DNA from: a virus
Reading direction: 5' to 3' (one strand)
IMG/VR virus record: IMGVR_UViG_3300044568_002024
Span: 1-64,000 of that record
DNA length: 64,000 nt
The notes beneath the pieces were generated by a model, which was not told where the DNA came from, ran no database searches, and saw only the letters and a list, made by a program, of their open reading frames with translations. Position 1 is the stretch's first letter; every line of letters begins with the position of its first letter. Positions 3,542 through 53,517 of the stretch are shown in pieces. Position numbers and translations under genes: made by a program.

Positions 3542-3964
3542 ATGGGTAAGACGATAAAATTAAAGGATCTAGTGCAAGAAGGGAGATCCATACATGAAAA
3601 GTTTAACAAAAAAATGAATGAAGCACCTTTCGGGAATGCACCCATTGGGAATATACCTCCTGGAATGCCAGGTGGTCGATCCATAACTATAAAAGAATTG
3701 ATTGCAGATTATGTGATTTTCCGTAAAGAAGAAGAATACAGCAGGAATATGGAAGACACAAAAGATGCTCAAATGCAAATAAAATCATTAGAGCAACAAA
3801 TAAAAAAAATGAAAGGTAATGCATTTTTTGAAATGGTGGAGGAATTAGCAAGGTTGGTTCTTTACTATGAAGAATATGCTGGACCCCAAGAATCAAGAGA
3901 GATAGAACAACAAATACGTCAGATGGCTCCACAATTAGGCATATCGGCAAATGATTATATTTAA
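3542..3964 (+). CDS. small protein with IKLKDLVQEG leader, possible virion cargo
   Basis: The ATG at 3542 follows ttggagtatt, a good ribosome site; the open frame goes further upstream into the terminator, so earlier starts are unlikely. The 140-residue product begins with IKLKDLVQEGRS and then HEKFNKKMNEA. This is almost the same leader as at 49039 and 49424, in proteins that otherwise differ. A proline/glycine-rich patch (residues 27-44) and a charged, coiled-coil-like helix (about 65-100) follow. No known domain was recognised. The leader looks like a T4-type capsid-targeting sequence with candidate cuts after VQE or MNE. A terminator follows. Confidence 0.6.
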   Translation: MGKTIKLKDLVQEGRSIHEKFNKKMNEAPFGNAPIGNIPPGMPGGRSITIKELIADYVIFRKEEEYSRNMEDTKDAQMQIKSLEQQIKKMKGNAFFEMVEELARLVLYYEEYAGPQESREIEQQIRQMAPQLGISANDYI

Positions 3965-4004
3965 TAAACGATTATTAACTAATAGCCAATTAAGAACTAT
4001 ACAG

Positions 4005-4030
4005 AGAGAATCATCCGATTCTCTTTTTTT
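4005..4030 (+). terminator. intrinsic terminator
   Basis: AGAGAATC (4005-4012) pairs with GATTCTCT (4017-4024) across ATCC and runs straight into seven T. A classic terminator isolating the cargo-like gene at 3542 from the next promoter. Confidence 0.85.
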
Positions 4031-4032
4031 AT

Positions 4033-4063
4033 TTTGCAATGTCATATTATTTTCGTATATTAG
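4033..4063 (+). promoter_or_regulatory. Bacteroidota-type promoter for the flap nuclease-helicase unit
   Basis: TTTG (4033-4036), 19 bases, then TATATTAG (4056-4063). It starts within the T-tract of the preceding terminator. The expected transcript start near 4070 rules out the upstream in-frame ATG at 4039 for the next gene. Confidence 0.75.
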
Positions 4064-4095
4064 TATTGATAAAACAATATATGGAATTGGTTACA

Positions 4096-9505: not shown

Positions 9506-10381
9506 ATGATTAAATTAAAAGATATATTATTAGAAGGTGGAAATTTATTTGCAGATGCAGTTGGTATAAAACAAAGTGAAGTTATGCCAACGGTCAAAAA
9601 AATAGAAACTGATATTTTGAAACCATTGGGATTGATTGGATTCGGAACTGATTGTTTCATATTAGGAAGTGCAGGGAAGAAACCTGCCGACCAATTATCC
9701 GGTGATTTAGATATTGGTATTTCTATGGATCAAATTGCTTCGGCCAATGAATTGAAATTGAGTGAGGTATTTAATTGGATGTCAGACAAATTAAGTGCCA
9801 TGGGATATGAAACAGAACCAATGCGTGGGTTTTCACAAATATCTATACCATACGAAATAGTCGGTAGAAATACCGGTGAACCAGTTCAAGTAGATTTTAT
9901 GTTATCGAATAATTTGAATTGGACACAATTTGTTTATTCGTCTCCAGATTATTCAAAGAGTGAATCAAAATATAAATCTGCGTATAGAAACTTTTTATTG
10001 GGTGCAGTTGTTGCTGCATTTGATTACAAAGTATTGAAGAAAACAGATAAAGATGTTCCGATTGAAATTCAAAAATATGTAATGAGACATGATAAAGGAA
10101 TTTTCAATCTGATAAAAAATTATTCTGGCAAAGGCGGTGGCGTAATTAAGTCCGGAAAAACAATAGCCGGAAGTGAGAGTTTTTTAACACAAACACCGGA
10201 AGAAATGGTGAATTTCTTTTTAGGTGATCAATATAGCCCTATGGATATTTCATCATTTGAAAAACTACATGATGTTGTTTTTAACAAACAGAGTAAAGTT
10301 TCAGGAATGAGAGAACTAATCCGTAAGTTTTTTATTCAAAATATAACCGATGCAAAATTACCGATACCGGAAATTGTATAG
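9506..10381 (+). CDS. nucleotidyltransferase-fold protein with capsid-targeting-like leader
   Basis: The ATG at 9506 gives MIKLKDILLEGG, the clearest example of the shared leader, with a canonical LLE processing site at residue 10. A TTG at 9497 is in frame but poorer. The 291-residue product then shows a polymerase-beta-type nucleotidyltransferase core: ILGSAGK, then SGDLDIGI with the paired aspartates, and a third acid in VQVDFML. Such enzymes transfer nucleotides to RNA, proteins or small molecules, as MNT toxins and antibiotic nucleotidyltransferases do. The substrate is unknown. With the leader, this may be an enzyme carried in the head and injected, by analogy with T4 Alt. Confidence 0.65.
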   Translation: MIKLKDILLEGGNLFADAVGIKQSEVMPTVKKIETDILKPLGLIGFGTDCFILGSAGKKPADQLSGDLDIGISMDQIASANELKLSEVFNWMSDKLSAMGYETEPMRGFSQISIPYEIVGRNTGEPVQVDFMLSNNLNWTQFVYSSPDYSKSESKYKSAYRNFLLGAVVAAFDYKVLKKTDKDVPIEIQKYVMRHDKGIFNLIKNYSGKGGGVIKSGKTIAGSESFLTQTPEEMVNFFLGDQYSPMDISSFEKLHDVVFNKQSKVSGMRELIRKFFIQNITDAKLPIPEIV

Positions 10382-10890: not shown

Positions 10891-11241
10891 ATGAGTATTT
10901 CATCTAGAAAACAACTTTTAGAAGAAGCAGGTAAAGTATTGAAAATGATTCGTGAAGTAGACGAGGGATTAGACAAGAAAGTAAAATCTGCACTTAAAAA
11001 AATTGAAACTGCAATCGAAGAGAAAGGAGATAAAACACAAGCTCTTATAGAACTTGCCAAACTTCTTGGTGAAAAAAAATGTGTTACTAAATTAGAAGCC
11101 ATAAAAGAAATTGAAAAGGCAGAGGAAGGGACTCCATATTTTATAGATCAATATAAAAAAGAAGTTGAAAAATGTTTAATGGATATTGCTAGAGAAAAAT
11201 TTGATTCAGATGAATATGGTGCTGTTATCAGTGCTATCTGA
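10891..11241 (+). CDS. small helical protein with LLEE leader, possible cargo
   Basis: A strong ggagg five bases before ATG 10891 sets the start; ATG 10888 is too close to it. The 116-residue product opens MSISSRKQLLEEAGK, which has a T4-protease-like LEE site near residue 11. The rest is helical and charged. The same opening, (I/L)(I/L)EEA(A/G)KVL, is seen in the protein at 44751, so the two may share a leader. No known domain was recognised. It lies between a membrane protein and the 839-residue protein. Confidence 0.6.
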   Translation: MSISSRKQLLEEAGKVLKMIREVDEGLDKKVKSALKKIETAIEEKGDKTQALIELAKLLGEKKCVTKLEAIKEIEKAEEGTPYFIDQYKKEVEKCLMDIAREKFDSDEYGAVISAI

Positions 11242-11273: not shown

Positions 11274-13793
11274 ATGAATATCCTAAATTTATTAACGGAA
11301 TGGTCTAAATCAAAACCTTTTTTATCCGATTTGCTTAATCGAAATAGTGATTGGAAAGATGTTTTATTTCTTGGTTCAAGATCAATAGGTCCAAGATGGT
11401 TAAATGAAGAAGGTGCTGCAAAAGAAGAAGCAGCAATTCTTGAAGCTGCGGGACCTATACCATTTGGAACAAAAGCTGTTCCAATACTATACCCTTGTTA
11501 TGCTACTAAATGGGAAACATTTGAAGGTAATAAATTTTATTTTGACGATACTCCAATAGATTTGCCTAAAAACGGTAAATGGAAATATAGATTACCAGTT
11601 ACTTATGATTTAGCTAAAAAAACGTTTCAAGCAAATTCTATTGATACCATTTACCCAAATGTAAGTAATATAAAAATAGAGGATAGATCAAAAGGTGGAT
11701 TCAGAGAAACCGATCACTATTTTGTTAGATCAAATGGAGAAGTTTGGATAAAGGGTAATACTCCATATTTGAATTTGGCTATAACTGTTAATTGGAAAAA
11801 CGATTCAGGCGGTTCAAACTCAACTCGTATAGAAATACCACCAGAAGATTTTATATTAAATGGTAAATTGATTTCTGTATCTGATAGAAAAGTTAGAGTT
11901 CCATATCGTCCTTGCTATGAAGGTTTTGAAAATTTATATGAAATAAAAGACTATGTAGTAACATTTAATAGAAAAGTATGTCATTCTTCATATGACACAA
12001 ATGATGCTATTGATTCGGTTCTAATGAACGGACCATCAAATCCCGCACCTCCTAGATTTAATCCAGATGGAACACTAGCACCTTGGTCAGAATTTGCAAC
12101 TTTCAAAGAAGGTATTTTTGCATACACACGTGATTATACAGAAGAAACTGTTGAACAAACCGTAATTGATGACAGAGGGAATCCAACTGGACAAAAAAGT
12201 ATAGGATATGAAATAGTAGAAGCTGGTGCTAGTCTTAAATATATTGGTGGAAAGACTTGGGGTGAGGCGTTCAAAAAAGTAAATAAAGATACTGGATTGC
12301 CTCTAAATGGATATACTCAAAATGCATATGAACCAGAAGAAGATGCTTTATATTATTTATCTGCTAGTATAGAAACCAGAACAACAACGATAAAAGAATA
12401 TACCAATCAAACTCGTTTTTCCGATTTGTTGAATTGTGAATGTATCGAGTTAAACATAATAACACCACCAACTATTAACAGATTTTTGACACCAGATTGT
12501 GATTGTACTGTTACAGTAAGTGAAGAAATTTATATTATCTGTCCTGATCAATTTACAACTAAAGCATACAATGAATATCTAAATGGAAGACAGACTCCGC
12601 CTGAAATAGATGATTTGATTGATCCAAATGATCCATTGGCAATAGAGCCGACTTATAGAAGAATAATAACTGCAGATCCATGTGAGTTTGGGGATGATTC
12701 TAGTAGAGTATGGCAAAGATTTGCATCCAGAGACATTAGAGATATTGTTAAAAATGAAATTGATGGATTATTTGATGGTCAAGAAACAATAGATTGTTAT
12801 TCTACTGGTTCAACTCAAAATGAGTTAAGTAAGGCATATTACTATGATGTTACTAAATGTGATATATGTGAGGTTAGTAAATCATATTTTTCAGTTTCAT
12901 TCGGTCATTATGCTGGTTCTGGATCTTTGTTTGAATCATTTGAGGATGAAGATTCTCCATCTAGATCAATTTTTAGTCAATATAGACTGAAGGCACTTGA
13001 TGATTTTTCCGAAAACTTTACATATTACAATAATGGATCAATCAATACATCTAACATGATTTATGTTATGACTTTCAATCGAAATTCTATAAAAGATAGA
13101 ATAGATCCTGGAAATTTTCAAATCAATCTTTCTGAATTAAACGGAACATCATATTCAAACATTTTTTATACGGGAAGTAATGTTCAAGTTAGTTCATCAA
13201 ATAAAATACTTTCTCTTATAGATAATTCCGGTGACTTAACTGACATGAGTTCTTGTTCTGAATTGAATGCAATGTATTCTTTTGATATTGTTAGTGGTTC
13301 ATTAACATCTGGAATACATTCATCTGGAGTTGGTAATGTATCTTCAAATCCAAATCTAACAACTTATGGTAAAGTTTATCCAAATTTGGGCGTTATAGTT
13401 TTGGATGCTGATATGTTAAATTCAGAATTGAATTTTAACACGGTTACTGGTAGTAATATAAATGGGGATAATCACTATAAACTTTTTACATCATTGAGTG
13501 GATCTGCTGCTTTAGGGCAACCAAGTAAATTTAGAAATTCAAGACAAAGAAATATAAAAAATTACTCTGTTAGAATTGCTCCCGTTGAATGTAATGTTTC
13601 AAATAATCCAACATATTTGAAAGAATACGGTAGATTAAAATACGCCTGTTTCATAGAAAATCCAGTTACATACATAACAACAGTTGGTCTTTACAATAGT
13701 GCCAAAGAGTTACTTGCTATTGCAAAATTAAGTAAGCCAATTAAAAAAACAAAAGATGATACTGTTGATATAAAAATTAGACTCGGTTTGTAA
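11274..13793 (+). CDS. large protein of unknown function, probable virion structural protein
   Basis: 839 residues, among the longest genes in the window. The N-terminus MNILNLLTEWS has an LTE site like the cargo leaders. The rest is rich in Ser, Asn, Asp and aromatic residues with many short strands. It has clustered cysteines (CDCTVTV near residue 400, CDICEV near 530) and a Gly/Ser-rich C-terminal half. This composition is typical of beta-rich tail, baseplate or decoration proteins. No domain was recognised. The start ATG has no clear ribosome site. The position, beside small membrane and cargo-like proteins and away from other structural genes, is unusual. Confidence 0.55.
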   Translation: MNILNLLTEWSKSKPFLSDLLNRNSDWKDVLFLGSRSIGPRWLNEEGAAKEEAAILEAAGPIPFGTKAVPILYPCYATKWETFEGNKFYFDDTPIDLPKNGKWKYRLPVTYDLAKKTFQANSIDTIYPNVSNIKIEDRSKGGFRETDHYFVRSNGEVWIKGNTPYLNLAITVNWKNDSGGSNSTRIEIPPEDFILNGKLISVSDRKVRVPYRPCYEGFENLYEIKDYVVTFNRKVCHSSYDTNDAIDSVLMNGPSNPAPPRFNPDGTLAPWSEFATFKEGIFAYTRDYTEETVEQTVIDDRGNPTGQKSIGYEIVEAGASLKYIGGKTWGEAFKKVNKDTGLPLNGYTQNAYEPEEDALYYLSASIETRTTTIKEYTNQTRFSDLLNCECIELNIITPPTINRFLTPDCDCTVTVSEEIYIICPDQFTTKAYNEYLNGRQTPPEIDDLIDPNDPLAIEPTYRRIITADPCEFGDDSSRVWQRFASRDIRDIVKNEIDGLFDGQETIDCYSTGSTQNELSKAYYYDVTKCDICEVSKSYFSVSFGHYAGSGSLFESFEDEDSPSRSIFSQYRLKALDDFSENFTYYNNGSINTSNMIYVMTFNRNSIKDRIDPGNFQINLSELNGTSYSNIFYTGSNVQVSSSNKILSLIDNSGDLTDMSSCSELNAMYSFDIVSGSLTSGIHSSGVGNVSSNPNLTTYGKVYPNLGVIVLDADMLNSELNFNTVTGSNINGDNHYKLFTSLSGSAALGQPSKFRNSRQRNIKNYSVRIAPVECNVSNNPTYLKEYGRLKYACFIENPVTYITTVGLYNSAKELLAIAKLSKPIKKTKDDTVDIKIRLGL

Positions 13794-15822: not shown

Positions 15823-16470
15823 ATGGCAAAGTTAAAACATCTATTACCCGATAAACAATTAAATGAGAGTGGTCTTGCTCGTTTAGCAAAACATATGTCT
15901 GAACATGACTGTGGAACAATAACTGCATTCCGTTCAAAAGAGGGATGTGCGGGTCCAGAAGACAAATCATATACAAAGGCAGATAATCAAAAAAGAAATA
16001 AACAACTTTATGCAAATCTTCAAATGTTAGGATATGCCGCTACTGCCGTTCATGGTGCATACATTGAAAACTATGGAACGCCAGATGCAAAGGAAGTTAG
16101 AGAAAATGTATATTTCGTTGTTGATATTCGTGATAAAGGATCTTTGCGCAATGATCTTGAAAATCTTGGTAACAAGTATCAACAAGATTCTGTATTGTTT
16201 ATACCAAAAGGTGGCGAAGGATCAATCTTAATCGGAACAAATGATTGTAAAAATTCTTATCCTGGATTTGGTAGAGAAATGAAATTCAGAGATAGAAAGA
16301 TGGGGCAAGGTGGGGAATTTATGACAAAGATTTCAGGCAGGCCTTTCATGTTTGAAAGTAATTTGCTAGAAACAGTTATAGATGATAACTACTTTCAACA
16401 TGCAAATATAATGGGTAAGTGGGCAACCAAGACTATTGCAAAGGGCGATTGGAAAGATATTGATATTTAA
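15823..16470 (+). CDS. DUF3293-like protein
   Basis: 215 residues. TITAFRSKEG, then NQKRNKQLYANLQMLGY with a later ENVYFVVDI and KYQQDSVLFIP resembles DUF3293 proteins (TAFNP...NxxRNxxLxxxLxxxG...QxAVLW). That family's function is unknown. The N-terminus MAKLKHLLPDKQLNESG has an LNE site near residue 15, compatible with head-protease removal but less like the core leader. It stands behind its own ATATTTATA motif, which supports late expression. It is followed by two small genes. Confidence 0.55.
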   Translation: MAKLKHLLPDKQLNESGLARLAKHMSEHDCGTITAFRSKEGCAGPEDKSYTKADNQKRNKQLYANLQMLGYAATAVHGAYIENYGTPDAKEVRENVYFVVDIRDKGSLRNDLENLGNKYQQDSVLFIPKGGEGSILIGTNDCKNSYPGFGREMKFRDRKMGQGGEFMTKISGRPFMFESNLLETVIDDNYFQHANIMGKWATKTIAKGDWKDIDI

Positions 16471-27410: not shown

Positions 27411-27563
27411 GTGAACGCAAAATCAAAATACTCCAGTATTCAAATACGTAATCAACTCAAAGAAGAATTGGTAAATTATTGTAGTGATAATGGATATAAG
27501 TTGAGTGGGTTGGTAGAAAAACTAATTCTTAATCATTTAACCGGAAGTTTAGGTGTTTCGTGA
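27411..27563 (+). CDS. ribbon-helix-helix (Arc-like) small protein
   Basis: A 50-residue protein starting with GTG at 27411. YSSIQIRNQLKEELVNYC, then NGYKLSGLVEKLILNHL, has the RHH layout: one strand, helix, turn, helix. Such proteins bind DNA as dimers. It overlaps the first glycosyltransferase gene by the GTGA tetranucleotide, so it leads the glycan operon. It may regulate that operon or itself, through the palindrome upstream. The target is inferred only from position. Confidence 0.6.
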   Translation: MNAKSKYSSIQIRNQLKEELVNYCSDNGYKLSGLVEKLILNHLTGSLGVS

Positions 27564-28945: not shown

Positions 28946-28954
28946 AGGTTTCAC

Positions 28955-30379: not shown

Positions 30380-30386
30380 GGATAAA

Positions 30387-32332: not shown

Positions 32333-32335
32333 CAA

Positions 32336-36694: not shown

Positions 36695-36697
36695 TAT

Positions 36698-37231
36698 ATG
36701 TTAGATAAATTAAAAAGTTATGGCAATGATGTTCGTATACATGAATTATCTGTTATTACTAGACCAGAATTGGTTGAAGTTGGAAATCATATCGCAATAG
36801 ATATGTGGACATATATTTCAACACAGGCAATTTTAGGAAACTACATACACATTGCACCGAGTGTTTCTATAATAGGTGGTGCATCTGCAAAAATAATAAT
36901 GGAAGATTTTACAAATATAGGTTCTGGCGGAAGGATTGTTTGTGCAACAGATGATTTCAGTCAAGGACTAATTTCACCGGTAGTTCCAATACAACATAGA
37001 ACTGTAATAAATTTGCCTGTTGTTTTTAAGAAGTTTTCTACTCTCGGTGTTAATTGTAGTGTATTACCGGGTGTAACACTCGGAGAAGGTAGTATCGTTG
37101 GTGCAAATTCAGTTGTAACGAAAGATACAGAACCATGGATGATATATGCAGGTAGTCCTGCAAGACCAATACGAATGAGAGATAGAGATAGAATTTTGAA
37201 AAGTGCAAAAGAATTATTAGGAGAAATTTAA
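36698..37231 (+). CDS. hexapeptide-repeat (LbH) acyltransferase
   Basis: 177 residues with left-handed beta-helix repeats: VGNHIAIDMWTYIS, LGNYIHIAPSVSIIGG, then FSTLGVNCSVLPGVTLGEGSIVGANSVVTKD and the ending YAGSPARPIR. These are typical of sugar O- or N-acetyltransferases using acetyl-CoA. It ends on the first base of the next gene. It would acetylate a sugar made by this cluster. Confidence 0.85.
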   Translation: MLDKLKSYGNDVRIHELSVITRPELVEVGNHIAIDMWTYISTQAILGNYIHIAPSVSIIGGASAKIIMEDFTNIGSGGRIVCATDDFSQGLISPVVPIQHRTVINLPVVFKKFSTLGVNCSVLPGVTLGEGSIVGANSVVTKDTEPWMIYAGSPARPIRMRDRDRILKSAKELLGEI

Positions 37232-38130
37232 TGAATACTAACTATTCAACAGACCGTAATGCTTTAGACATACCTTGGATCGAATCACCATTTTTTTATA
37301 GTTTATTAGAAAATTCTAATTTAACAGAAGAACAAAAGACCATGTGTATAAACTTTCACGAGAAGGGTTATGTCATAATTGATTTGAATTTGGATGATAG
37401 TGAAATAGAACCGATAGTAAATGATATGTATGATGCATTGAATGTTGAATCTACTGTATTTCATGCAGACCATTTTACATATTCAGATTCAAAAAGAATT
37501 TTTGAACAATGGAAACGGAGCGATTCTATTGCAAAATTAACACTACATCCAAAAATAACCGAAACATTGACTACGTTATATGGTAAAGAACCGTTTCCAT
37601 TTTCCACTATAAATTTCATAAAGGGCAGTAATCAACCTATGCATAGCGATGTCATTCATTTTCATACCGTTCCGAGTCTTTGGATGTGTGGAGTTTGGGT
37701 TGCATTTGAAGATGTGAATGAAACAAATGGTTCATTGCAAATAATACCGGGTAGTCATAAGTGGTCTGCCTATGAATACCATAATTTGAAGTTACCACAT
37801 CCTGATACATTGGAGAATGGTGAGGCAGTAACATATAGACAATACGAACACTTTGTCAAATCTTTAATAGAAAATAACAAAGTTGATCCATATATTGTTG
37901 AATTAAAAAAGGGACAATCACTTATTTGGGCAGCAAATATGTTACACGGTGGTTGTAATGTAGAAGGTGTCACAGACCTAAATAATACACGATTGACACA
38001 AGCGATTCATTATTTCTTTGGTGATTGTGAACAATACTACCATCCTATGTTTAGTGATGTTCCCAATGCAAAATATGCAAAGAAATGGTGTGATGATACT
38101 AATAATATAAAAACTTATTTGGATAAATGA
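37231..38130 (+). CDS. phytanoyl-CoA dioxygenase (PhyH)-like Fe(II)/2OG enzyme
   Basis: 299 residues. MHSDVIHFHTVPS near 133-145 gives the H-x-D metal ligands, then WVAFEDVNETNGSLQIIPGSHKW is the PhyH hallmark (D...GPL...PGSH). The distal histidine is in ANMLHGG near 241. The enzyme would hydroxylate a small molecule or sugar/lipid using 2-oxoglutarate. It overlaps the short DegT gene by ATGA. Confidence 0.85.
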   Translation: MNTNYSTDRNALDIPWIESPFFYSLLENSNLTEEQKTMCINFHEKGYVIIDLNLDDSEIEPIVNDMYDALNVESTVFHADHFTYSDSKRIFEQWKRSDSIAKLTLHPKITETLTTLYGKEPFPFSTINFIKGSNQPMHSDVIHFHTVPSLWMCGVWVAFEDVNETNGSLQIIPGSHKWSAYEYHNLKLPHPDTLENGEAVTYRQYEHFVKSLIENNKVDPYIVELKKGQSLIWAANMLHGGCNVEGVTDLNNTRLTQAIHYFFGDCEQYYHPMFSDVPNAKYAKKWCDDTNNIKTYLDK

Positions 38131-38732
38131 TTATGTTTCAGTTAGTTCAAGAATTTGAAAAAGAGATTGCAAAATTCTTTGGTTCACCATTTGCTATTGC
38201 AGTTGATAGTTGCACTCACGGTATTGAACTTGCATTGCGTTATACTGGTGCTAAAAAGATAAGTGTCCCAAAACGCACATATATTTCAATTCCATTTCTT
38301 GCAAATAAACTTAACATAGAGTTGGAATGGAAAGACGAAGAATGGTTAGATTATTATTATCTGACTAATAATATAATTGATGCTGCAGTTTTGTGGAAAG
38401 AAAATAGTTACATTCCAAATACAATGATGGGTGTTAGTTTTCAATATCAAAAACATTTATCACTTGGTAGGGGTGGCGTTCTTTTATTGGATAATGAAAT
38501 AGATGCCATTGAGATAAAAAAAATGTCTTATGACGGAAGATTGCCGGTTATACCATGGAGAGAACAAAACATATCCACCATTGGTTATCACTACTACATG
38601 ACACCAGAAACTGCAAAGAACGGTTTGGAAAAATTACCAGATGCAATAAAAACTAAACCTAGACAATGGGTTGTTTCGGATTGGCCAGATTTAACAGAAA
38701 TGAAAGTATTCAAAAATAATATAGGACTATGA
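38127..38732 (+). CDS. short DegT/DnrJ-like sugar aminotransferase
   Basis: 201 residues, against about 370 for the family. FGSPFAIAVDSCTHGIELALR matches the N-terminal cofactor loop, PKRTYISIPFLANKL the next block, and SFQYQKHLSLGRGGVLL the PLP-lysine motif with K near 112. YHYYMTPETA follows the GYNxRM position. The C-terminal small domain and part of the large domain (roughly the SHG/DxAxxxG region) are missing or reduced. Internal deletion with kept lysine suggests a compact enzyme or a decaying copy; the intact frame favours the first. Confidence 0.65.
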   Translation: MIMFQLVQEFEKEIAKFFGSPFAIAVDSCTHGIELALRYTGAKKISVPKRTYISIPFLANKLNIELEWKDEEWLDYYYLTNNIIDAAVLWKENSYIPNTMMGVSFQYQKHLSLGRGGVLLLDNEIDAIEIKKMSYDGRLPVIPWREQNISTIGYHYYMTPETAKNGLEKLPDAIKTKPRQWVVSDWPDLTEMKVFKNNIGL

Positions 38733-38733
38733 C

Positions 38734-39714
38734 ATGATTAAGAAAAAAGCATTCATAACTGGAATAGGTGGACAAGATGGTTCATATTTGGCAGAATATC
38801 TAGTAGGAATTGGGTATGATGTCTATGGAATAATAAGAAGAAACTCTACACCAGAACACCAACAAAGTAGACTTGATGGTGGTAACAAAGATATAAAAGT
38901 GTTCTATGGCGATTTGTTAGACCAATCCAGTTTAGAACGATTACTTTCAGAAATAATGCCGGATGAAATATACAATCTTGCGGCACAAAGTCATGTTAGA
39001 GTTAGTTTTGATATACCACAATTTACTGTCCAAACAAATGCAGTTGGTGTTCTAAACATACTTGATGCTTATAGGAGAATCTGTCCTAATGCCAAATTCT
39101 ATCAGGCATCATCATCTGAAATGTTCGGTAGTTCTGTTGATGAAGATGGGTTCCAAAGGGAAACAACTCTAATGAAACCAGTTTCACCTTATGGTTGCTC
39201 AAAAGTTTTTGCATATAACATTGTTCGTAATTACAGAAACTCATATGATCTTCATGCAAGTAATGGTATTCTTTTTAATCACGAATCACCAAGACGAGGA
39301 TCTAATTTTGTAACAAACAAAGTTGTTAAAACTGCAGTTAGGATAAAACTTGGGTTGGATGATTCATTGGAATTGGGCAACCTAGATTCATTTAGAGATT
39401 GGGGACACTCGAAAGATTATGTTAGGGCAATGCATCTTATATTACAACAAGATACTCCAGATGATTGGGTTGTTGCAACTGGCGAAACTCGTTCTGTTAG
39501 AGAAATGTGTGAATACGTTTTTTCCAAACTCGGGTTGGATTACAAAGATTATGTAATTCAAAATCCAAAGTTTTTAAGACCAGAAGAACTGCCTTATCTA
39601 AAAGGAGATTCTACTAAAATAAGATCTTTACTCGGTTGGAAGCCCGAATATACTTTCAATACAACTATGGATGAAATGGTAAATCATTGGATGAATGTTT
39701 TTGGAGGAAGATAA
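38734..39714 (+). CDS. gmd: GDP-mannose 4,6-dehydratase
   Basis: 326 residues. The SDR Rossmann motif is TGIGGQDGSYLAEYL (9-23), and RNSTPEHQQSRLD follows at the NADP site. SSEMFG and YGCSK (Y153, K157) are catalytic. NHESPRRGSNFVTNKV is highly typical of GMD. It converts GDP-mannose to GDP-4-keto-6-deoxymannose, the branch point to GDP-fucose, rhamnose or perosamine. The aminotransferase before it and the fucosyltransferase-like gene after it fit this route. No phage GDP-fucose synthase was identified with certainty; the epimerase at 42065 is a candidate. Confidence 0.93.
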   Translation: MIKKKAFITGIGGQDGSYLAEYLVGIGYDVYGIIRRNSTPEHQQSRLDGGNKDIKVFYGDLLDQSSLERLLSEIMPDEIYNLAAQSHVRVSFDIPQFTVQTNAVGVLNILDAYRRICPNAKFYQASSSEMFGSSVDEDGFQRETTLMKPVSPYGCSKVFAYNIVRNYRNSYDLHASNGILFNHESPRRGSNFVTNKVVKTAVRIKLGLDDSLELGNLDSFRDWGHSKDYVRAMHLILQQDTPDDWVVATGETRSVREMCEYVFSKLGLDYKDYVIQNPKFLRPEELPYLKGDSTKIRSLLGWKPEYTFNTTMDEMVNHWMNVFGGR

Positions 39715-40580
39715 TGGAAAGATTAAATGCATTTATGTGTAATCCTGGAAACTTTGGTGATAAAGAAGTTGCAGAACAATGGCCATGTTTTCCAAGTAAG
39801 TATTTACATTGGACCCCTTATGAAATGCAAGACATTGCCATTTGGATTGACTGTTGGGATTCACCGTGTATAAAAGAAATAACACGAACAGATATAAAAT
39901 ATAAAATTGCAGTATTGGTAGAACCGAGAGTTCTTGCGCCTTGGCATTATCAATTTGTATTAGATAATGAAGAAAATTTTGATTTGATATTCAGCACATA
40001 CATAGACTTTGGTTCTGATTCAAAAAACCCTAATAAATTTAGAAAATTTCCAGGTGGTGCTAGAACGCTAATCCATCCAGAAGAATGGAATGTATATCAA
40101 AAATCAAAAAATATATCTACAATCATGTCACACAAATCTTATATGCCTGGTCATAAATTAAGACATGAGATAAGAGAAAGACATGGTAACTTGTTTGAAT
40201 CAATTATTGATTATGTTAATCCGGATTTTAATTCAAAATTTTTAGGATTAAAGGATTATCGATTTGAACTCGTTATAGAAAATGAAGACGATATGTTTTT
40301 TTCTGAAAAGTTATTAGATTCTATGTTATGTGGTTGCATTCCTATTTATTGGACAGATAGAGACACATCGTATCTTGATATGTTCGATAAGAACGGTATA
40401 GTATTTTTCAAAGACGCTGATGATTTTTTTGAAAAACTTTTAAGTGGAATGTTCACAGAAGAATTTTACAATGAAAGGATGGATGCAATAAAACACAATT
40501 TTGAAGAAGCAAAAAAATACATATCACTTGGCGATATGCTTTGGGATAATGGTATCAAAGATTTAATAGGAACAAAATGA
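39714..40580 (+). CDS. GT10 fucosyltransferase-like protein
   Basis: 288 residues from ATG 39714, overlapping the gmd stop by one base. LKDYRFELVIENEDDMFFSEKLLDSMLCGCIPIYW (about 175-209) has the layout of the GT10 motif (F-x-N-S...EKL...A...GxVPV). GGARTLIHPEEW could carry the second-domain signature. It would transfer a fucose-like sugar from a GDP-sugar, in line with gmd just upstream. The N-terminal domain is divergent. Confidence 0.7.
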   Translation: MERLNAFMCNPGNFGDKEVAEQWPCFPSKYLHWTPYEMQDIAIWIDCWDSPCIKEITRTDIKYKIAVLVEPRVLAPWHYQFVLDNEENFDLIFSTYIDFGSDSKNPNKFRKFPGGARTLIHPEEWNVYQKSKNISTIMSHKSYMPGHKLRHEIRERHGNLFESIIDYVNPDFNSKFLGLKDYRFELVIENEDDMFFSEKLLDSMLCGCIPIYWTDRDTSYLDMFDKNGIVFFKDADDFFEKLLSGMFTEEFYNERMDAIKHNFEEAKKYISLGDMLWDNGIKDLIGTK

Positions 40581-41287
40581 ATAACATAAAAGTAATATAC
40601 AGAATATCAGACGCTGGTTACAATAAAGTTAAACCACTTTATATTAACAATGCCAATTGTCTACAAAATGCAGTTAGAGTTTTTGGAAAAGAAAACTTCC
40701 ATGTGATTGCAGATAATGTATCGGAAGAAACAAAAAGAATAATTCGGCAATCGGGTGATATAGAAGATGAACAGATTGATTATGTTTCCGTTGGACATGG
40801 TGCGGGAACTTTTAATTTGGCATTGGATTTGGCATTGAAACAAGATGAAGAAACGCTTGTTTATTTCCTTGAAAATGATTATATTCATAAATCAAATTCA
40901 TATAAGATAATGTTAGAAGGAATTGAATTGGGTGCAGACTATGTTAGTTTATATGACCATCCCGATAAATACATTCCTGCAAATAGAGGTGGTAATAAAT
41001 TTGTAGATGAAGACGGTGGTGAGATAACAAAGATATACCTATCCGAATCTTGTCATTGGAAATTGGCAAACAGCACTACTATGACTTTTGCAGGTAAGGT
41101 AAAGTCTTTGAAAAGAGATGAGGCGATACTTCGTAAGTGGACAAACATGGGACACTACCCAAGAGATTTTGATATGTTTTTAGAATTAAGAGAGAATGGA
41201 GTTTCATTGATGACACCTATTCCTGGTTTTTCAACTCACGGTGAAACTGCATGGTTGTCACCGCTAACTGATTGGGGACAAATATGA
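40577..41287 (+). CDS. GT-A-like glycosyltransferase (divergent)
   Basis: 236 residues. VIYRISDAGYNKVKPLYINNANCL opens a GT-A-like fold and VYFLENDYIHKSN (about 94-106) sits where the D-x-D motif would be, with END in its place. SLYDHPDKY and SESCHWKLANSTTMTF follow, and GFSTHGETAWLSPLTDW ends it. This pattern is seen in phage and bacterial glycan clusters but without a firm family name known to me. It overlaps neighbours by four bases on both sides. Confidence 0.55.
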   Translation: MNNIKVIYRISDAGYNKVKPLYINNANCLQNAVRVFGKENFHVIADNVSEETKRIIRQSGDIEDEQIDYVSVGHGAGTFNLALDLALKQDEETLVYFLENDYIHKSNSYKIMLEGIELGADYVSLYDHPDKYIPANRGGNKFVDEDGGEITKIYLSESCHWKLANSTTMTFAGKVKSLKRDEAILRKWTNMGHYPRDFDMFLELRENGVSLMTPIPGFSTHGETAWLSPLTDWGQI

Positions 41288-42072
41288 TTTCAGTAATAAT
41301 ACCATCTTATAGAAATCCAAAGTGTTTGGATATTTGCCTGAAATCTGCATTAGAAAATCAAACATATGATAATGAAATAATAGTTGTAATAGATGGATTC
41401 GTTGAAGAATCACAACATATTATTGATGAATATAGTAACAGAGTTTCATTTATACCAATAGAACAAAATTCCGGTATGCAATATGCACTAAATGCTGGAA
41501 CATACAATGCAACGAATGAATGGGTATTGATTGTAAATGATGATAATGTTTTTCCGAAAGATTGGGACACTATTCTTGAAAAAGACTTTGTGGATAAATT
41601 GGTGATAACGCCAAATCAAATTGAAAGAACACCAAGTATATTCAATTTTGTTACACTTGATTTCGGTGGTGTTGATGATTTCGATTTAATACGATATACA
41701 TTAGAGGAACAAAACCACAGAGAAGATTTACTAACAAATGATGGTGAGATATTCCCTTTCGTAATGCAAAAGAAATACTACATGGCATCCGGTGGGTTTG
41801 ATACAATATATGATTCACCATTTATTTGTGATTGGGATTTCTTCTTGAAGTTAGAATTGATTGGTCTTAATTTTTTAAGAAGTAGAAAATTAAACTTCTA
41901 TCATTTCGGTAGTATGGCAACAAAGAACGGATCAGAATCAAATAGATTCAGAGAAAGTGAAATGATTGCTGCAGAAACATTTGAATATAAATGGGGATTC
42001 AAACCATTTAGAACTCTAGGAAATTCACATTCACCAAAAGGAAACATTGTTAAAGGAATAATGTATGAATGA
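41284..42072 (+). CDS. glycosyltransferase family 2
   Basis: 262 residues from ATG 41284 (the open frame starts upstream with TTG but ATGA coupling favours this ATG). SVIIPSYRNPKCLDICLKSAL is the GT2 opening, then IVVIDGF and VNDDNVFPKDW for the metal site (about 87-97), and FICDWDFFLKLELIG (about 178) for the catalytic E/D region. It would be an inverting transferase. It overlaps the epimerase gene by eight bases. Confidence 0.85.
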   Translation: MISVIIPSYRNPKCLDICLKSALENQTYDNEIIVVIDGFVEESQHIIDEYSNRVSFIPIEQNSGMQYALNAGTYNATNEWVLIVNDDNVFPKDWDTILEKDFVDKLVITPNQIERTPSIFNFVTLDFGGVDDFDLIRYTLEEQNHREDLLTNDGEIFPFVMQKKYYMASGGFDTIYDSPFICDWDFFLKLELIGLNFLRSRKLNFYHFGSMATKNGSESNRFRESEMIAAETFEYKWGFKPFRTLGNSHSPKGNIVKGIMYE

Positions 42073-43066
42073 TAAAACTATATTGATTACTGGTGGCGCG
42101 GGTTTACTTGGTGCTAGACTTTCGGATTGGATTGTAACAAATCAACCAGAATATAAAGTTGTTTCTGTTGATAATTTATCAGGTGGTTACATTGAAAATA
42201 TAAATCCCAATGTTACTTTTTATGAGGCAGATTGTGTTGATAGAAAACAAATTGAGGATATATTCAACAGACACAAACCAACTTATGTATATCACATGGC
42301 TGCATACGCAGCTGAAGGATTGTCACCATTCATTCGTTGTTTTAATTATGAGAACAATCTTTTGGCTACCGCTAACATTGTTAATAACTGCATCAAACAT
42401 AGTGTAGACAGATTGGTATTCACATCAACAATGGCAGTTTATGGTCATGGTAATCCTCCTTTTGATGAATCACATCAACCTACACCTATAGATCCATATG
42501 GTGTTGCAAAGTTTGGGTGTGAACAGGATATACAGATTGCAGGTGAACAACATGGTTTGGATTGGTGTATAATCAGACCACACAATGTTTACGGTATAAA
42601 ACAAAACATTTGGGACAAATATAGAAATGTTCTTGGTATTTGGATGTATCAAGTTCTTAACAATAAACCAATGACGATATATGGTGACGGTGATCAAGTT
42701 CGTTCATTCAGCTATATTGATGATTGTCTTGAACCACTTTGGAAGGCAGCAGTAGATTATCGTGCGTCAAAACAGATAATAAATTTAGGTGGAACAAAGG
42801 ATTGTAGTATAAATGAAGCAAACGATATTCTCAAATCAGTTATTGGATATGGTGAAACTATACACCTTGAACCAAGACATGAAGTAAAGTATGCACATCC
42901 TACTTGGAAAAAATCTGTTGATTTACTTGATTATACAGACAAGACATCACTCGAAGATGGATTAAGACAAATGTGGAATTGGGCAAAGGAACAGCCGATG
43001 CGTGAACAATTCATTTGGAATGAATATGAATTGGACAAGGGCATATATTCTTTTTGGAAAAAATAA
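42065..43066 (+). CDS. NAD-dependent sugar epimerase/dehydratase
   Basis: 333 residues of the extended SDR family (GalE-like). LITGGAGLLGARL (7-19) binds NAD, with STMAVYG and YGVAKFGCE (Y about 140, K about 144) as catalytic elements. RPHNVYGIKQNIWDKYRNVLG fits the sugar-binding segment. It could be a UDP-sugar 4-epimerase or make a later step from the gmd product. It is the last gene of the glycan run. Confidence 0.85.
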   Translation: MNDKTILITGGAGLLGARLSDWIVTNQPEYKVVSVDNLSGGYIENINPNVTFYEADCVDRKQIEDIFNRHKPTYVYHMAAYAAEGLSPFIRCFNYENNLLATANIVNNCIKHSVDRLVFTSTMAVYGHGNPPFDESHQPTPIDPYGVAKFGCEQDIQIAGEQHGLDWCIIRPHNVYGIKQNIWDKYRNVLGIWMYQVLNNKPMTIYGDGDQVRSFSYIDDCLEPLWKAAVDYRASKQIINLGGTKDCSINEANDILKSVIGYGETIHLEPRHEVKYAHPTWKKSVDLLDYTDKTSLEDGLRQMWNWAKEQPMREQFIWNEYELDKGIYSFWKK

Positions 43067-44750: not shown

Positions 44751-45341
44751 ATGAACCCAATGAAACGAATCATAATCGAAGAAGCTGCTAAAGTTTTGAG
44801 AGAAGTGAAAAAACAAAAAAGAGTAAGTCCGGTTAAGTCTAATTTATTTGAGGCAATAAAAACTGCGGATATAGTTAAGAACAATCCTAAAAAATATAGA
44901 ATAGCGAAAAAACTTATTGCTATTAGTGAAAATAAATTTATCAAAGAAAGAAACCGTCTAAAAGAAGAACATGGTCCAGAGGATGAATCCGAAATGGCAA
45001 AGGCACAATTAGCTGCAATCATGGAAAAATCTAATGAACTTTATAGAATGTTAGACGGAGTATCACATCTTGAAGATTGGTTACAATATAAACTTTCAAT
45101 CGCAGAAAACTATATTGATGCAGTTCATGGTTATATGAAATACTTTAACGGAGGTGAAGAAATGGAATCAGACGAACAGTATGATGATCAATGGGATGAT
45201 GTTGAAGAAGAAGATTTTAATGACGAAGATGCGGAATACTATGATGATGAATCCGAAGAAAATTTTGATGATTTCGATGATTATGATTTTGAAGATGATT
45301 ATGAAGATTTCGATGAAGATGATGAGGAATTTATTGTATAA
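44751..45341 (+). CDS. helical protein with IIIEE leader and acidic tail, possible cargo
   Basis: 196 residues from ATG 44751, chosen because the upstream frame start at 44730 lies almost at the transcription start. The N-terminus MNPMKRIIIEEAAKVLREV holds an IEE site near residue 10 and is similar to the leader at 10891. The middle is basic and helical. The last 60 residues are almost all Asp/Glu/Tyr/Phe, a DNA-mimic-like composition. No domain is known. Packaging in the head is a hypothesis from the leader. Confidence 0.55.
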   Translation: MNPMKRIIIEEAAKVLREVKKQKRVSPVKSNLFEAIKTADIVKNNPKKYRIAKKLIAISENKFIKERNRLKEEHGPEDESEMAKAQLAAIMEKSNELYRMLDGVSHLEDWLQYKLSIAENYIDAVHGYMKYFNGGEEMESDEQYDDQWDDVEEEDFNDEDAEYYDDESEENFDDFDDYDFEDDYEDFDEDDEEFIV

Positions 45342-49038: not shown

Positions 49039-49422
49039 ATGAAAGATTTGGTAAACGAGGGAAGACATTTACAAGATAAATTCAAAGACAAATTGAAAGA
49101 GGAATTAACGGGTCCTTCAAAGGCAGATATTCACTATAAAATAAATCATCCAGTTCTTACTATACTAACCATACAGGATGACAAATCTGCATTTTCTGGT
49201 AATAGAGGAACAACTCGTATGCAAATTGTGTTTGGATTGAAGTCTCCTGCAATTAACACAATGGCTGATCCAGAAATGCTTATGCGTGATGCTTCAAAAA
49301 TTGCCAGAGATATATGTGGTAAACTTGATAACTACAATACAACTCATAATTCAGGTAGACCACAACAACAAGGAAATAATATAATAGTTCCGGTTAGAGT
49401 TGAACACTGGACAGGTGATTGA
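49039..49422 (+). CDS. small protein with MKDLVNEGR leader, possible virion cargo
   Basis: 127 residues. The first 25 (MKDLVNEGRHLQDKFK, then DKLKEE) match the leaders at 49424 and 3542 closely while the remainder differs. Candidate cuts are after VNE (residue 7) or LKE (residue 22). The body has strands PVLTILTIQDD and RMQIVFGL and a glutamine/asparagine-rich loop before VPVRVEHWTGD. Its function is unknown. It lies 1 base before the next leader-bearing gene. Confidence 0.6.
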   Translation: MKDLVNEGRHLQDKFKDKLKEELTGPSKADIHYKINHPVLTILTIQDDKSAFSGNRGTTRMQIVFGLKSPAINTMADPEMLMRDASKIARDICGKLDNYNTTHNSGRPQQQGNNIIVPVRVEHWTGD

Positions 49423-49423
49423 T

Positions 49424-49744
49424 ATGAAAGACTTAGTAAATGATGGTAGAAAATTACAAGATAACTTTCGTAAAAAATTATTGAAAGAAGATGTATTTCA
49501 AGATTTGGGAATATCACTTTCACCAAAAGCAAAAGAAGAAGTATTAACTAACAGACTCACAAACAATCCGCAATACATTAGTGCAGTTCAACACGAATGG
49601 GATTTTTTTAGTGTTAATGAAAAAGAAGCAAAATCGGAAGATGTTGCAATGATGTTAGAAAAATTAAGAAAAAATAATTGGAACAACACACCAGAAGATT
49701 GGGCTAAACTTCATGTAACAGAATTTTTTGCAAACAAGGAGTGA
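49424..49744 (+). CDS. small protein with MKDLVNDGR leader, possible virion cargo
   Basis: 106 residues from ATG 49424. The leader MKDLVNDGRKLQDNFRKK, then LLKED, is a close copy of that at 49039; here the first site has Asp instead of Glu, so the LKE site near residue 23 is the better candidate. The body (FQDLGISLSPKAKEEVLTNRL, YISAVQHEWDFFSVNEKEA) is helical. No known domain. The ribosome site of the endolysin lies in its last codons. Confidence 0.6.
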   Translation: MKDLVNDGRKLQDNFRKKLLKEDVFQDLGISLSPKAKEEVLTNRLTNNPQYISAVQHEWDFFSVNEKEAKSEDVAMMLEKLRKNNWNNTPEDWAKLHVTEFFANKE

Positions 49745-50355: not shown

Positions 50356-50356
50356 A

Positions 50357-51589
50357 ATGAATAGAAAAAATGATATGTCCCTTGTTAAATTACTGAAAGA
50401 GATAATGATTTCAGAGGGAGATACATCTGGCTCAACTGATGCAGAAAATGTATTAGCAATTCTTATGAGTAATCAAGGAATGACGAAAGAAGAATTTGCT
50501 AAATTTTACAAAACAAAAAATGTAGATGCTGTATTTTTGAAAGATTATTTTGCAAGATTTCTGAATGGAAAGCCAATTGATGTTTATTACGGAGCCATTA
50601 AGAATATAAAGGCTGAAAAATTACCAGTAAACGCAAAACAGGTTGGTGATGCTAATTTTGGAACAACCCAAATGTGGCAATCATATGGGGGTATCAAGTC
50701 TGTTCGTTCAAAGGCAGATGTAATAGGACAAGGAGTAACATATTCTGTAAAAAATGCAAGCACACAGGTTAGAGTTCTTGATGCATCTGCTCCACAGATA
50801 ATAGCGTTGATTCATTGTGCCATGGATAAAACTAAAAACACTCAAAAGGTTAGAGAGACTATTAGGAAAAGATTGACAACACTAAAAGAATTATCCAATG
50901 AAGAAGGCGCAAAATTGTCAAGAATGTTTGGTGGAAAAAAATATGGACTCGGTGAATTGAGAAAACTACTTGATACAAATATGAAGGCATTGATTAAACA
51001 ATACGATGACAATACCGCTGAAATGAATGTTGAGATTGAAGCAATTTTTGATCAAATTCAAAGTGAAAAAGATTTCAAAGATGCATTTATTTATGAATCA
51101 TTATCCGGAAAAACAATGTTGGGTGAAAATTCCGATGGTAGAGCAGATGCTATTTTGACATGGACTGCTGATTTTTCACAAGTTAAAAGCCATGACATAA
51201 AAGATGTTACAACAAAAATAACTTCCAATTTTAAGATACCAAAGTTTGCATCAAAAAGTAGTGGTGTTAGAATCACAAAAACTATACAAATGTTTTTTCA
51301 AGACACTTCAAAAGAAGTAGACAAATTGGCTACACAAGAAAATATATTGATTAAAAAAAGAAATAGTAGACTGATAACAGAGGGTGCCTTTTCTGATTTG
51401 TGGAATACATTACAACAGAAAGGAATGGACGTTATTAAAAAATTGATAAAGGCCATAATGGATTTCATTAAAAAGGTAACGGATAAAATATCAGGCGCCA
51501 TTACTGATTTGTTATCTGTGTTGGGTTTTGAAGTTCAAATACAAGGTGATTACAGTTTAGATGCTTCAATAAATTATGAAAGTTTGTGA
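50357..51589 (+). CDS. cargo-type protein with amphipathic C-terminal segment
   Basis: 410 residues. The N-terminus MSLVKLLKEIMISEGD (from residue 7) has LKE and ISE sites like the capsid-targeting leaders. The middle includes AFIYESLSGKTMLGENSDGRADAIL, a pattern remembered from phage proteins of unknown function. Residues about 345-395 (LWNTLQQKGMDVIKKLIKAIMDFIKKV, then ISGAITDLLSVLGF) form strongly amphipathic to hydrophobic helices. These could insert in a membrane. I infer a large injected protein; no family name is known. Confidence 0.55.
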   Translation: MNRKNDMSLVKLLKEIMISEGDTSGSTDAENVLAILMSNQGMTKEEFAKFYKTKNVDAVFLKDYFARFLNGKPIDVYYGAIKNIKAEKLPVNAKQVGDANFGTTQMWQSYGGIKSVRSKADVIGQGVTYSVKNASTQVRVLDASAPQIIALIHCAMDKTKNTQKVRETIRKRLTTLKELSNEEGAKLSRMFGGKKYGLGELRKLLDTNMKALIKQYDDNTAEMNVEIEAIFDQIQSEKDFKDAFIYESLSGKTMLGENSDGRADAILTWTADFSQVKSHDIKDVTTKITSNFKIPKFASKSSGVRITKTIQMFFQDTSKEVDKLATQENILIKKRNSRLITEGAFSDLWNTLQQKGMDVIKKLIKAIMDFIKKVTDKISGAITDLLSVLGFEVQIQGDYSLDASINYESL

Positions 51590-51591
51590 TT

Positions 51592-51873
51592 ATGTTAGAT
51601 TCGTTTTGGGCAAGTTTGGAGATAGATGATATATCTGATTTAGGATATACGGAAAACTCTCCGTATAAAACACAAGAACAAAAAGAAGATGTATTGGAAA
51701 AGATAGATTGGGTGTTACTAAAATTACATAAGATAAAAGATAAGAGAAAATATGATTATGATATTGTAACAAGTGTAAAAAACAAAATAAAGTTTAACGA
51801 TTGTTCATTGACTATTAAGGGTGTGGAATTTCTTAATTTGATAACGAATGATTTGAAACAGGACATCTTCTAA
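51592..51873 (+). CDS. small protein of unknown function
   Basis: 93 residues from ATG 51592, two bases after the previous stop (a GTG overlapping that stop is also in frame). DSFWASLEIDDISDLGYTENSPYKTQEQKEDV is acidic and the rest lysine-rich and helical. It is the last plus-strand gene before the strand switch. Confidence 0.5.
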   Translation: MLDSFWASLEIDDISDLGYTENSPYKTQEQKEDVLEKIDWVLLKLHKIKDKRKYDYDIVTSVKNKIKFNDCSLTIKGVEFLNLITNDLKQDIF

Positions 51874-51877
51874 AAAG

Positions 51878-51904
51878 AAAACCCCATGAATTTCATGGGG
51901 TTTT
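51878..51904. terminator. bidirectional terminator at the strand switch
   Basis: A 12-bp stem (51878-51889 with 51893-51904) has an A-tract before it and a T-tract after it, so it can end transcription from both sides. The convergent genes stop 5 and 7 bases from it. Confidence 0.9.
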
Positions 51905-51910
51905 TATTTA

Positions 51911-53074
51911 TCATTCAAATGCTTTACTACCAATCAACTTTACTATTTCTTCAAATACTTTTTCAGATTCTTTCATTTCATCAACTTTAATTTTGAATTT
52001 ATTCAAGTTGTGTTCTATCGCTTGGTCGAATGTTGATAGGTAAGCATCCCCTTTCTTTTTTCTAATAGTTCCAACCCAAAGAATTGCCTGTATCTCCAAT
52101 GGTTCCATGTTGAATCTTTCTGCAAGATCATGTGTCTTTTTTGAAAGATATTGGTAATTACTATTCTTTGCTAGTATCTTTCTTTTTTCTTCTGTATTCA
52201 AATGTGGATAGAAGAATGTTGCCATCCAAATGTCCATTGTAACGGGCATCCAACCTGTTTCTGTTTTGTATGTTGGATCCAAAAGATTAAGACAGAATGA
52301 TAATATCTTCTCGGATGATATAACTTTCGTGTCCATCAATGCTCCAGTGTCTTGTCTAATGTGTCTACCTAATTCTTGTGCTAAGTCTGTCTTTTGAAAT
52401 TGATAACCCTTTTCTTTGTACAGTTTCAATGTTCTTAATATGTTTGGCAAAACAGTTGGAAGACTTTTGTTACCCTTAATCATTCCCTTAACGGTTGCTA
52501 AATTCTTAAATTCATTTCTTTGTTTTATACTTTGATACAATTCAGAACTTGACATTTGTATCATTCTTAATAATTGTGCTTCTGTTTTTGGATCAGAAAG
52601 GTCTCTTTTTATTCCAGTATAAACTTGTGATGCAAGTTTGAAGTTATCTGATAGTCTTGAAAATGATGCAAAAATTCCTAAGAGAAGAAGAAACAAACAA
52701 CCATCTGATTCTTCCATTGCTGATAGAATTTTTGTATTCATTTCTTCATACCATTTTTTTGCTGCTAATCCCAAGTCCACGATTTCTTCAACTCCATCAA
52801 AAACGGATTTGTCTATCTTCAAAACATACCCACCTTCTTCTAATTCTGCAGATGTCATTTGTAGATATTTTGGTTTTTCTTTTTCTTCCAATTCCATTTC
52901 AACAAATGGTGTAACATCTGCACCAACTTGTTTAGCGAAATCATTTAAGTCTTGAAATTCCTTTGCATCCAATTCAAAACCAACTTCACCACCTTCAAAC
53001 ATTAGAGTGAAACGTTTTTTTCTTTGTTGCAAAGGTGTTAATTTTTCTTCAATGAGTTTTTTTAATCGTATCAT
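51911..53074 (-). CDS. cargo-type protein with DUF7178-like C-terminal domain (tentative)
   Basis: 387 residues. The start MIRLKKLIEEKL is a version of the shared leader with an IEE site near residue 9. Residues 230-350 (EKILSFCLNLLDP, VTMDIWMATFFYP, YQYLSKKTHDLAERFNMEPLEIQAILWVGTIRKKK) have the pattern NLL...VTIDxWMAR...QAIxW known from phage proteins I associate with DUF7178, of unknown function. A hydrophobic stretch CLFLLLLGIFASF lies near 125. It overlaps the repeat protein gene by four bases. Confidence 0.5.
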   Translation of the reverse strand: MIRLKKLIEEKLTPLQQRKKRFTLMFEGGEVGFELDAKEFQDLNDFAKQVGADVTPFVEMELEEKEKPKYLQMTSAELEEGGYVLKIDKSVFDGVEEIVDLGLAAKKWYEEMNTKILSAMEESDGCLFLLLLGIFASFSRLSDNFKLASQVYTGIKRDLSDPKTEAQLLRMIQMSSSELYQSIKQRNEFKNLATVKGMIKGNKSLPTVLPNILRTLKLYKEKGYQFQKTDLAQELGRHIRQDTGALMDTKVISSEKILSFCLNLLDPTYKTETGWMPVTMDIWMATFFYPHLNTEEKRKILAKNSNYQYLSKKTHDLAERFNMEPLEIQAILWVGTIRKKKGDAYLSTFDQAIEHNLNKFKIKVDEMKESEKVFEEIVKLIGSKAFE

Positions 53075-53517
53075 TCTATTATCCTTATCATATTTTTGGT
53101 GTATAAATAAACTGCAGCTGCAGCTCCTGCCATTTTTGCATCTGTTCTTTCCCTCTTAGCAACAATAACAGTTGCCAATATATCACCAGATGGTGAACGC
53201 CCTTCTCTAACTCTATTTGATGTATCTATGTTGGCTATAACTTTTCCAGTTGTACTTTCTCCCAATCTAACGAATGGTGTAACAAATCTTGCAAGTATTC
53301 TTCCAGATGGTGACCGTCCTAATCTAATTTTATCTCGGTCTATTGTGAGTAGTATATCACCAGATGGTGAACGTCCTTCTCGTATTGAGTTTTCATTAAA
53401 GTTTAAGAATATGTTTCCAGATGGAGACCTACCTAACTTTATTACATTGGCAACTGGAGTGTTTATGTTGAACCCCAAACCAAATACTTCATTTAATATG
53501 TCTTTTAATTTAATCAT
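53071..53517 (-). CDS. cargo-type protein built of five GRSPSG repeats
   Basis: 148 residues from the ATG at 53517, which has ccggaaa upstream; a start at 53532 is also open. The leader MIKLKDILNE carries an LNE site. Residues 28-125 consist of five tandem repeats of about 20 residues with the core (L/E)GRSPSGxIL; the fourth is degenerate (GESTTGKV). The C-terminus has an alanine-rich segment KMAGAAAAVYLYTKN. The repeat recalls small beta-propeller or 'beta flower' sequences with a G-x-x-x-G-x-(I/V) turn. Function unknown. Confidence 0.6.
   Translation of the reverse strand: MIKLKDILNEVFGLGFNINTPVANVIKLGRSPSGNIFLNFNENSIREGRSPSGDILLTIDRDKIRLGRSPSGRILARFVTPFVRLGESTTGKVIANIDTSNRVREGRSPSGDILATVIVAKRERTDAKMAGAAAAVYLYTKNMIRIIE
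53148..53440 (-). repeat. five in-frame ~60-bp coding repeats
   Basis: The plus strand repeats the word ccagatggtga (with small changes) near 53188, 53303, 53360 and, weaker, 53417; these encode the GRSPSG core. The spacing of about 57-60 bases (about 115 across the degenerate unit) and the protein-level variation show coding repeats, not a CRISPR array. Confidence 0.6.

Follow-up and report, generated by a model that had tools for sequence, protein, structure and literature searches.

In phage T4, the internal proteins IPI-III, Alt and gp24 carry N-terminal capsid-targeting sequences or propeptides of about ten residues, which stand on unrelated protein bodies and are processed by the prohead protease gp21 (PMC9026906, PMC5694885). 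gp21 cleaves after L/I-x-E. Within this sequence, targeting depends on residues 4 and 7 and processing on residues 8 and 10, and aspartate at position 10 blocks processing while targeting stays intact (PMC9026906). The targeting sequence was described in a T4 review as having affinity for the core, and it was proposed there earlier that sequences of this kind enable T4-like phages to transport a variety of proteins (PMC9026906). The ejection proteins of phiKZ and SPN3US resemble what we propose below: as inner-head proteins they lose N-terminal propeptides, cut off after x-x-E by a prohead protease, and two SPN3US proteins have an identical N-terminal 15-mer; unlike the leader described here, these propeptides are mostly longer than 100 residues, carry an A-x-E motif and belong to another phage lineage (PMC5694885).

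The window analyzed here is 64,000 nucleotides long and covers the initial 64 kb of a virus record of 68,132 bases (IMGVR_UViG_3300044568_002024), itself a fragment. It is best read as part of a T4-like virus of bacteria, in a clade that includes Flavobacterium phage immuto. Its genes were read from their sequences as a T4-type replication set: single-strand binding protein, UvsX, helicase and clamp loader. The helicase was 60% identical to that of Microcystis phage Mel-JY01, the nearest named phage, followed by Flavobacterium phages 'immuto' at 43%. UvsX was 97% identical to that of contig G001, which carries the major capsid protein (MCP) of the clade. No near DNA match to the first 24 kb of the window was found among 50,697 phage records. 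MCP comparison brought together Mel-JY01, immuto (55%) and a metagenomic phage, with Rhodothermus phage RM378 (36%) next, and T4, one cyanophage and one pelagiphage distant; immuto matched the clade MCP at E 9e-218. The close homologues of core genes place the window in a T4-like clade with Mel-JY01 and immuto.

The first-pass annotation had noticed that proteins at 3542, 9506, 49039, 49424, 51911 and 53071 begin with versions of one short leader followed by unrelated bodies. It had added five proteins with a looser form, and had read the set, up to about eleven proteins, as capsid-targeted cargo injected at infection. The six leaders were confirmed at each coordinate, and leaders were enriched over controls. 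An 8-residue PSSM was trained on relatives alone, with the window excluded, and used with a threshold of 12 bits. Scores of window ORFs were bimodal: eight ORFs (seven of normal length and a 40-aa ORF at 62572) scored 16.2-20.7 bits, and the next score was 8.4. Shuffled N-termini gave 0.07 expected matches at this threshold and internal Met sites gave 0; significance rests on these two controls, because several training sequences were homologues of window proteins. When several start codons were allowed, there were 7 matches against 0.10 expected in the window, 16 against 0.33 in G002 and 8 against 0.23 in G001, and the same scan returned 0 in T4 and 0 in the cyanophage. The 40-aa ORF at 62572 (16.7 bits) was set aside as too short to trust. 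For the proteins at 49039 and 49424, whose starts fall within the PSSM core, support comes from de novo N-terminal comparison and from homologues or genes with a like leader in G001 and G006; the two have a 23-residue form in common with 3542 and with genes of these two contigs.

The highest score (20.7 bits) belonged to a 148-aa protein with leader MIKLKDILNE at 53071..53517 on the minus strand, a 6-fold beta-flower protein that matched Pfam Bflower_3 at 2e-13, above the cut-off. Also on the minus strand, 51911..53074 encodes a DUF7178-like protein of 387 aa (leader MIRLKKLIEE, 16.9 bits), with a Pfam DUF7178 match of 1.2e-5, slightly below the cut-off; its G001 homologue (44%) starts MIKLRNILNE. 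The other candidates are on the plus strand. The 140-aa protein at 3542..3964 (MGKTIKLKDLVQE; MGKTIKLKDLVQEGRSIHEKFNKKMNE; 18.6 bits) retains its leader in the G005 homologue. At 9506..10381 lies a protein of 291 aa (18.2 bits) whose ten-residue leader, MIKLKDILLE (9506..9535, residues 1-10), is an exact match to the strict pattern, with a cut predicted after E10. An apparent absence of the leader from its homologues in G001, G004 and G009 was traced to wrong starts set by the gene caller, and reading upstream of the called starts gave MIKLKKLLTEGGN in all three. This family is putatively nucleotidyltransferase-like, judging from an invariant GS...DLD...D pattern; the structure model had a mean pLDDT of 49, too weak for a fold search.

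The long form of the leader was seen on the 127-aa protein at 49039..49422 (MKDLVNEGRHLQDKFKDKLKEE), where it is retained in the G001 homologue and present in the same form in G006, and on the 106-aa protein at 49424..49744 (MKDLVNDGRKLQDNFRKKLLKED), whose G001 homologue has MKDLVNEGRQLQ. Three of the five looser proteins also held up. The ParB-like protein of 279 aa at 536..1375 (leader MKNSLKNLVKE, 17.3 bits) has a second possible site, VKLNE, at residue 18; the leader is retained in six homologues, down to 32% identity, and the match to Pfam ParBc_2 was weak (0.024). The helical protein of 116 aa at 10891..11241 (MSISSRKQLLEEA, 17.1 bits) has homologues in which one body bears differing leaders (MKSLKLKSLLIKEE, MKLSKIIKEA). 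The 410-aa protein at 50357..51589 ((MNRKND)MSLVKLLKEIMISEG, 16.2 bits) has two relatives in viral contigs, aligned from residue 1 at 100% and 68%. We did not accept the protein at 11274..13793 (MNILNLLTEW, 8.4 bits) as cargo, because its body is a fibre-like module with homologues bearing unrelated N-termini; in Mel-JY01 these form a five-gene run at 172489-181435. The fifth, a possible carrier, is an acidic-tailed protein of 196 aa at 44751..45341 (MNPMKRIIIEEA; G001 homologue MHPIKKMIIEET) and was absent from the scoring ORFs. Nine of the eleven leaders were therefore kept, and a probable further cargo protein overlooked earlier was added: the 215-aa protein at 15823..16470 (MAKLKHLLPDKQLNE/SGL) scored only 8.3 bits, and its Mel-JY01 homologue starts MQFKQYILGE/SSL, with homology beginning around that E. 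Family searches of ten window candidates against Pfam and PHROGs gave no match to IP or Alt families, and a PDB sequence search gave no relevant match. As a separate observation, a distant relative of the ParB-like protein (G001:105350-106360, in L099) lies directly downstream of the MCP gene in G001, G004 and G005.

A degenerate DNA pattern for M-I-K-L-K-D-[LIMF]-L-x-E was searched in 2.9 million viral contigs and matched at least 120 stretches. Strict class I leaders gave 84 distinct matches among those listed, none in an ORF shorter than 40 aa. Among the matches listed from environmental viruses, 82 bodies behind MIKLKD[IL]LxE fell into at least 55 unrelated families, and a K/D-swapped control of the same composition found 5 stretches in the whole collection. 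The short N-terminal peptide is thus common to proteins with unrelated bodies, as in a T4-type targeting sequence. Strict carriers included Zeta-toxin/AAA_33 kinases, DUF5824, phage lysozymes, M23 peptidase, RimK-type ATP-grasp, NUDIX, RNase_T and beta-flower domains, and one G002 leader protein matched Tox-ART-HYD1 above the cut-off. A run of leader genes, including one for an ADP-ribosyltransferase-type (Tox-ART-HYD1) protein, was observed within about 3.5 kb of G002 (G002:165621-169062, in L109).

The KD[LI][LIV]xE hexamer occurred near the N-terminus of 27 of 2,016 clade proteins versus 0 of 717 proteins of T4, cyanophage and pelagiphage. Most of its 27 carriers were cargo candidates; the rest were four scaffolds, two terminases and one further protein. 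The profile by itself lacks specificity, because the N-terminal helix in terminase and in a few enzymes also agrees with looser forms of the leader. Terminase N-termini scored as leaders in seven contigs; we treated them as false positives because the Mel-JY01 terminase is without the motif and no large terminase is known to be packaged. A match to a pelagiphage UvsX was likewise rejected as a false positive.

The clade sequence MIKLKDILxE differs from the MKTYQEFIAE of T4. MIKLKD[IL]LxE shares the register of T4 IPII/IPIII, Alt and gp24 (the last beginning MAKINELLRE), with hydrophobic residues at 4, 7 and 8 and E at 10. Pairwise N-terminal comparison within T4, with no motif given, returned the pair with MKTYQEFIAE, which we take to be IPII/IPIII, and the pair with MELITELFDE (Alt and its neighbour); besides one weak pair, it also returned two groups that are probably homing endonucleases. 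The same kind of comparison revealed no shared N-terminal set in cyanophage S-ShM2. Strict class I leaders always end in [LI]LxE by construction of the pattern, and E occupied the site in 86 of 95 PSSM matches, with a PSSM that itself favours E. A, G or S followed the E in 32 of the 84 strict leaders listed (38%) versus 19% after internal [LI]xE (p 6e-5). Some leaders have a bulky or charged residue directly behind the E, which counts against a targeting propeptide.

The body of one gene between the protease and MCP genes is conserved while its leader is swapped, with the boundary beside an E: MIKLKTILLE/KDEKPDSENPDKMLV in G006, ...RSFSLSEE/DEKPASEDPEKMLV in G001 and MYEYVEYILE/KQNSDKILV in Mel-JY01. 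A HAD-type gene likewise reads MNITKILKE/AKAKKLRIFDFDDTL in G014 versus ...KSINE/GPAVKKLRIFDFDDTL in G002.

The proposed capsid-targeting reading called for a gp21-type protease and matching sites in the MCP, and a protease and candidate sites were found in close relatives of the window. As T4 has gp21, the clade has Peptidase_S77 proteins, which were matched in Mel-JY01 (6e-30) and G001 (4e-30); in G001 the prohead protease and a T4-type MCP lie in one block. One clade protease gene occupies L099:16505-17173 on the minus strand. Among 22 larger leader-bearing contigs, 12 had a Peptidase_S77 protease and 11 a T4-type MCP, the remainder being fragments. A PF03420 search of the window's own record, the 68,132-base fragment, found no protease, and there was no capsid gene on it either; for a fragment, this says nothing about the complete genome. 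The MCPs contain throughout a segment LLENQAKQLIxE/[AST] or KQLVTE/A that resembles the end of the leader. We align this segment with the cleavage site of T4 gp23. The leader pattern also appears at the start of three MCPs. Together with the T4 comparison above, the protease and the MCP segment support a T4-type targeting role.

Clade scaffolds begin with DLL[KR]xAIA[DE]AK. Some of these N-termini (KDLLKE) match the class I core, and ILNE occurs near the scaffold C-terminus. The scaffold gene is directly upstream of the MCP gene, a likeness to T4 gp22, whose start, MLKEQLIAEA, likewise ends in an (L/I)xE site; a difference from gp22 is that both ends of the clade scaffold reappear as leaders of unrelated cargo candidates. 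The leader site therefore appears to match the capsid and scaffold processing sites of the clade, which are themselves assigned by analogy with T4. G034 and G039 have two leader genes apiece between the protease and MCP genes. Clustering near MCP was not general, and the majority of leader genes are located outside the head module, a point against the targeting reading.

Two further leader classes were found. Class II (RMQKLAGIITE; ILSE...RMQKLAGIITE) was searched as MQKLAGI[IL]xE and gave at least 120 stretches; the counts that follow are of matches listed and hence lower bounds. Of 85 matches listed, 80 were within 45 residues of an ATG and four at a C-terminus; 65 bodies among them formed at least 55 families, and a K/Q-swapped control found 5 stretches. 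Three of the four C-terminal copies belong to the gene directly upstream of MCP, with a scaffold N-terminus. The immuto scaffold has KEIISEVSEQVSRWQKLAGIIK at its C-terminus, and a cargo candidate of this phage has MKKQILSEQFRRMQKLAGIITE at its N-terminus. RMQKLAGIITE was observed as a scaffold C-terminal tail in L336, L379, L410 and immuto (W03:111675). The clade MCP was present in 12 of 15 larger class II carriers, with E near 1e-200. In class III, three immuto proteins have MEN(T)FDLKKFLVEN[KR]LTxNS in common, and FDLKKFLxENKLT gave 82 stretches, with 34 families among 65 bodies. Loci with the (M)xNFDLKKFLVENKLTxNS leader were L452-L531 and immuto W03:1803, 103806 and 118632. All three leader classes occur in the genome of immuto, which is a cultured isolate. 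One protein of 486 aa (L489:5789-7249), encoded directly upstream of a terminase-like gene, opens with a class III-like leader (NFNLRQFLTENKLT), of which another copy stands at residue 348; the protein is perhaps two cargo units in one chain.

From these sequence comparisons, the leader is very probably a T4-type capsid-targeting propeptide that would be cut after E10. The amphipathic N-terminal decapeptide, with hydrophobic residues at 2, 4, 7 and 8 and E at 10, would dock cargo on the core as the prohead assembles, binding either the scaffold or the capsid protein's inner face. A gp21-type serine protease would cut after E while trimming scaffold and capsid protein, and the freed cargo would remain in the head and be ejected with the DNA. 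Leader-bearing proteins are thus probably a large set delivered into the host with the DNA. Compared with T4, the clade has many more body families and two further leader classes, one of which repeats the scaffold C-terminus; this scale and the extra classes go beyond the proposal of the T4 review.

Class I leaders repeat the scaffold KDLLKE and class II leaders its C-terminal tail. This raises the prospect, to which we give slightly less than even weight, that scaffold mimicry loads a large, fast-changing set of injected effectors. Cargo would then assemble into the core with scaffold, be released by the same protease and be delivered across environmental T4-like phages. The likeness offers a concrete candidate answer to what a capsid-targeting sequence binds.

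Carriers that dock on the prohead could instead have mostly structural or core roles, remaining in the head or aiding assembly rather than acting as injected effectors. T4 IPIII has such a role in assembly (PMC9026906), some carriers are encoded within the protease-MCP block, and the pattern is also present in MCP and scaffold. We regard this as unlikely, since carriers are many and patchy and have enzyme domains (Zeta toxin, RimK, NUDIX, RNase_T, Tox-ART-HYD1). Docking to another phage or host partner unrelated to capsids, such as a polymerase, a chaperone or a membrane site, would fit the fact that amphipathic helix starts are generic interaction motifs and that a looser form stands on terminase; the match to capsid and scaffold processing segments, the T4 register and the leader exchange at E make it highly improbable. 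Recombination at conserved DNA can disseminate short repeats at gene starts, yet a shared DNA element (promoter, ribosome-binding region or recombination site) translated by chance is hardly credible here, since the 88 matches listed have 75 distinct leader DNAs that vary at synonymous positions and no upstream position exceeds 0.51 bits, so it is the peptide that is kept.

If the preferred reading, a capsid-targeting propeptide, is correct, the likely injected proteins of an entire phage clade could be enumerated from sequence alone with a ten-residue string. Such effectors are difficult to detect, since most fall outside known families; in this clade each of two leader classes would comprise at least 55 families, with domains that include ADP-ribosyltransferase-like, zeta-type kinase, RimK-type ligase, NUDIX and nuclease types. 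A full-text literature search for the leader strings found no paper, and a paper on phages of strain LMO8, the immuto host, contained no mention of immuto and no immuto virion proteomics.

The window also carries GroEL-like and GroES-like genes (54384-56371, minus strand), the GroEL being about 60% identical to bacterial GroEL, and a 15-kb sugar-gene island (27560-43066) with look-alikes of glycosyltransferase, epimerase and related sugar genes. Among the window, Mel-JY01, immuto, G002 and T4 contigs, Shine-Dalgarno-like sites were found upstream of 58% of window genes and 61% of T4 genes, and of only 12-15% in immuto and G002, a spread that hints at different host groups inside one clade.
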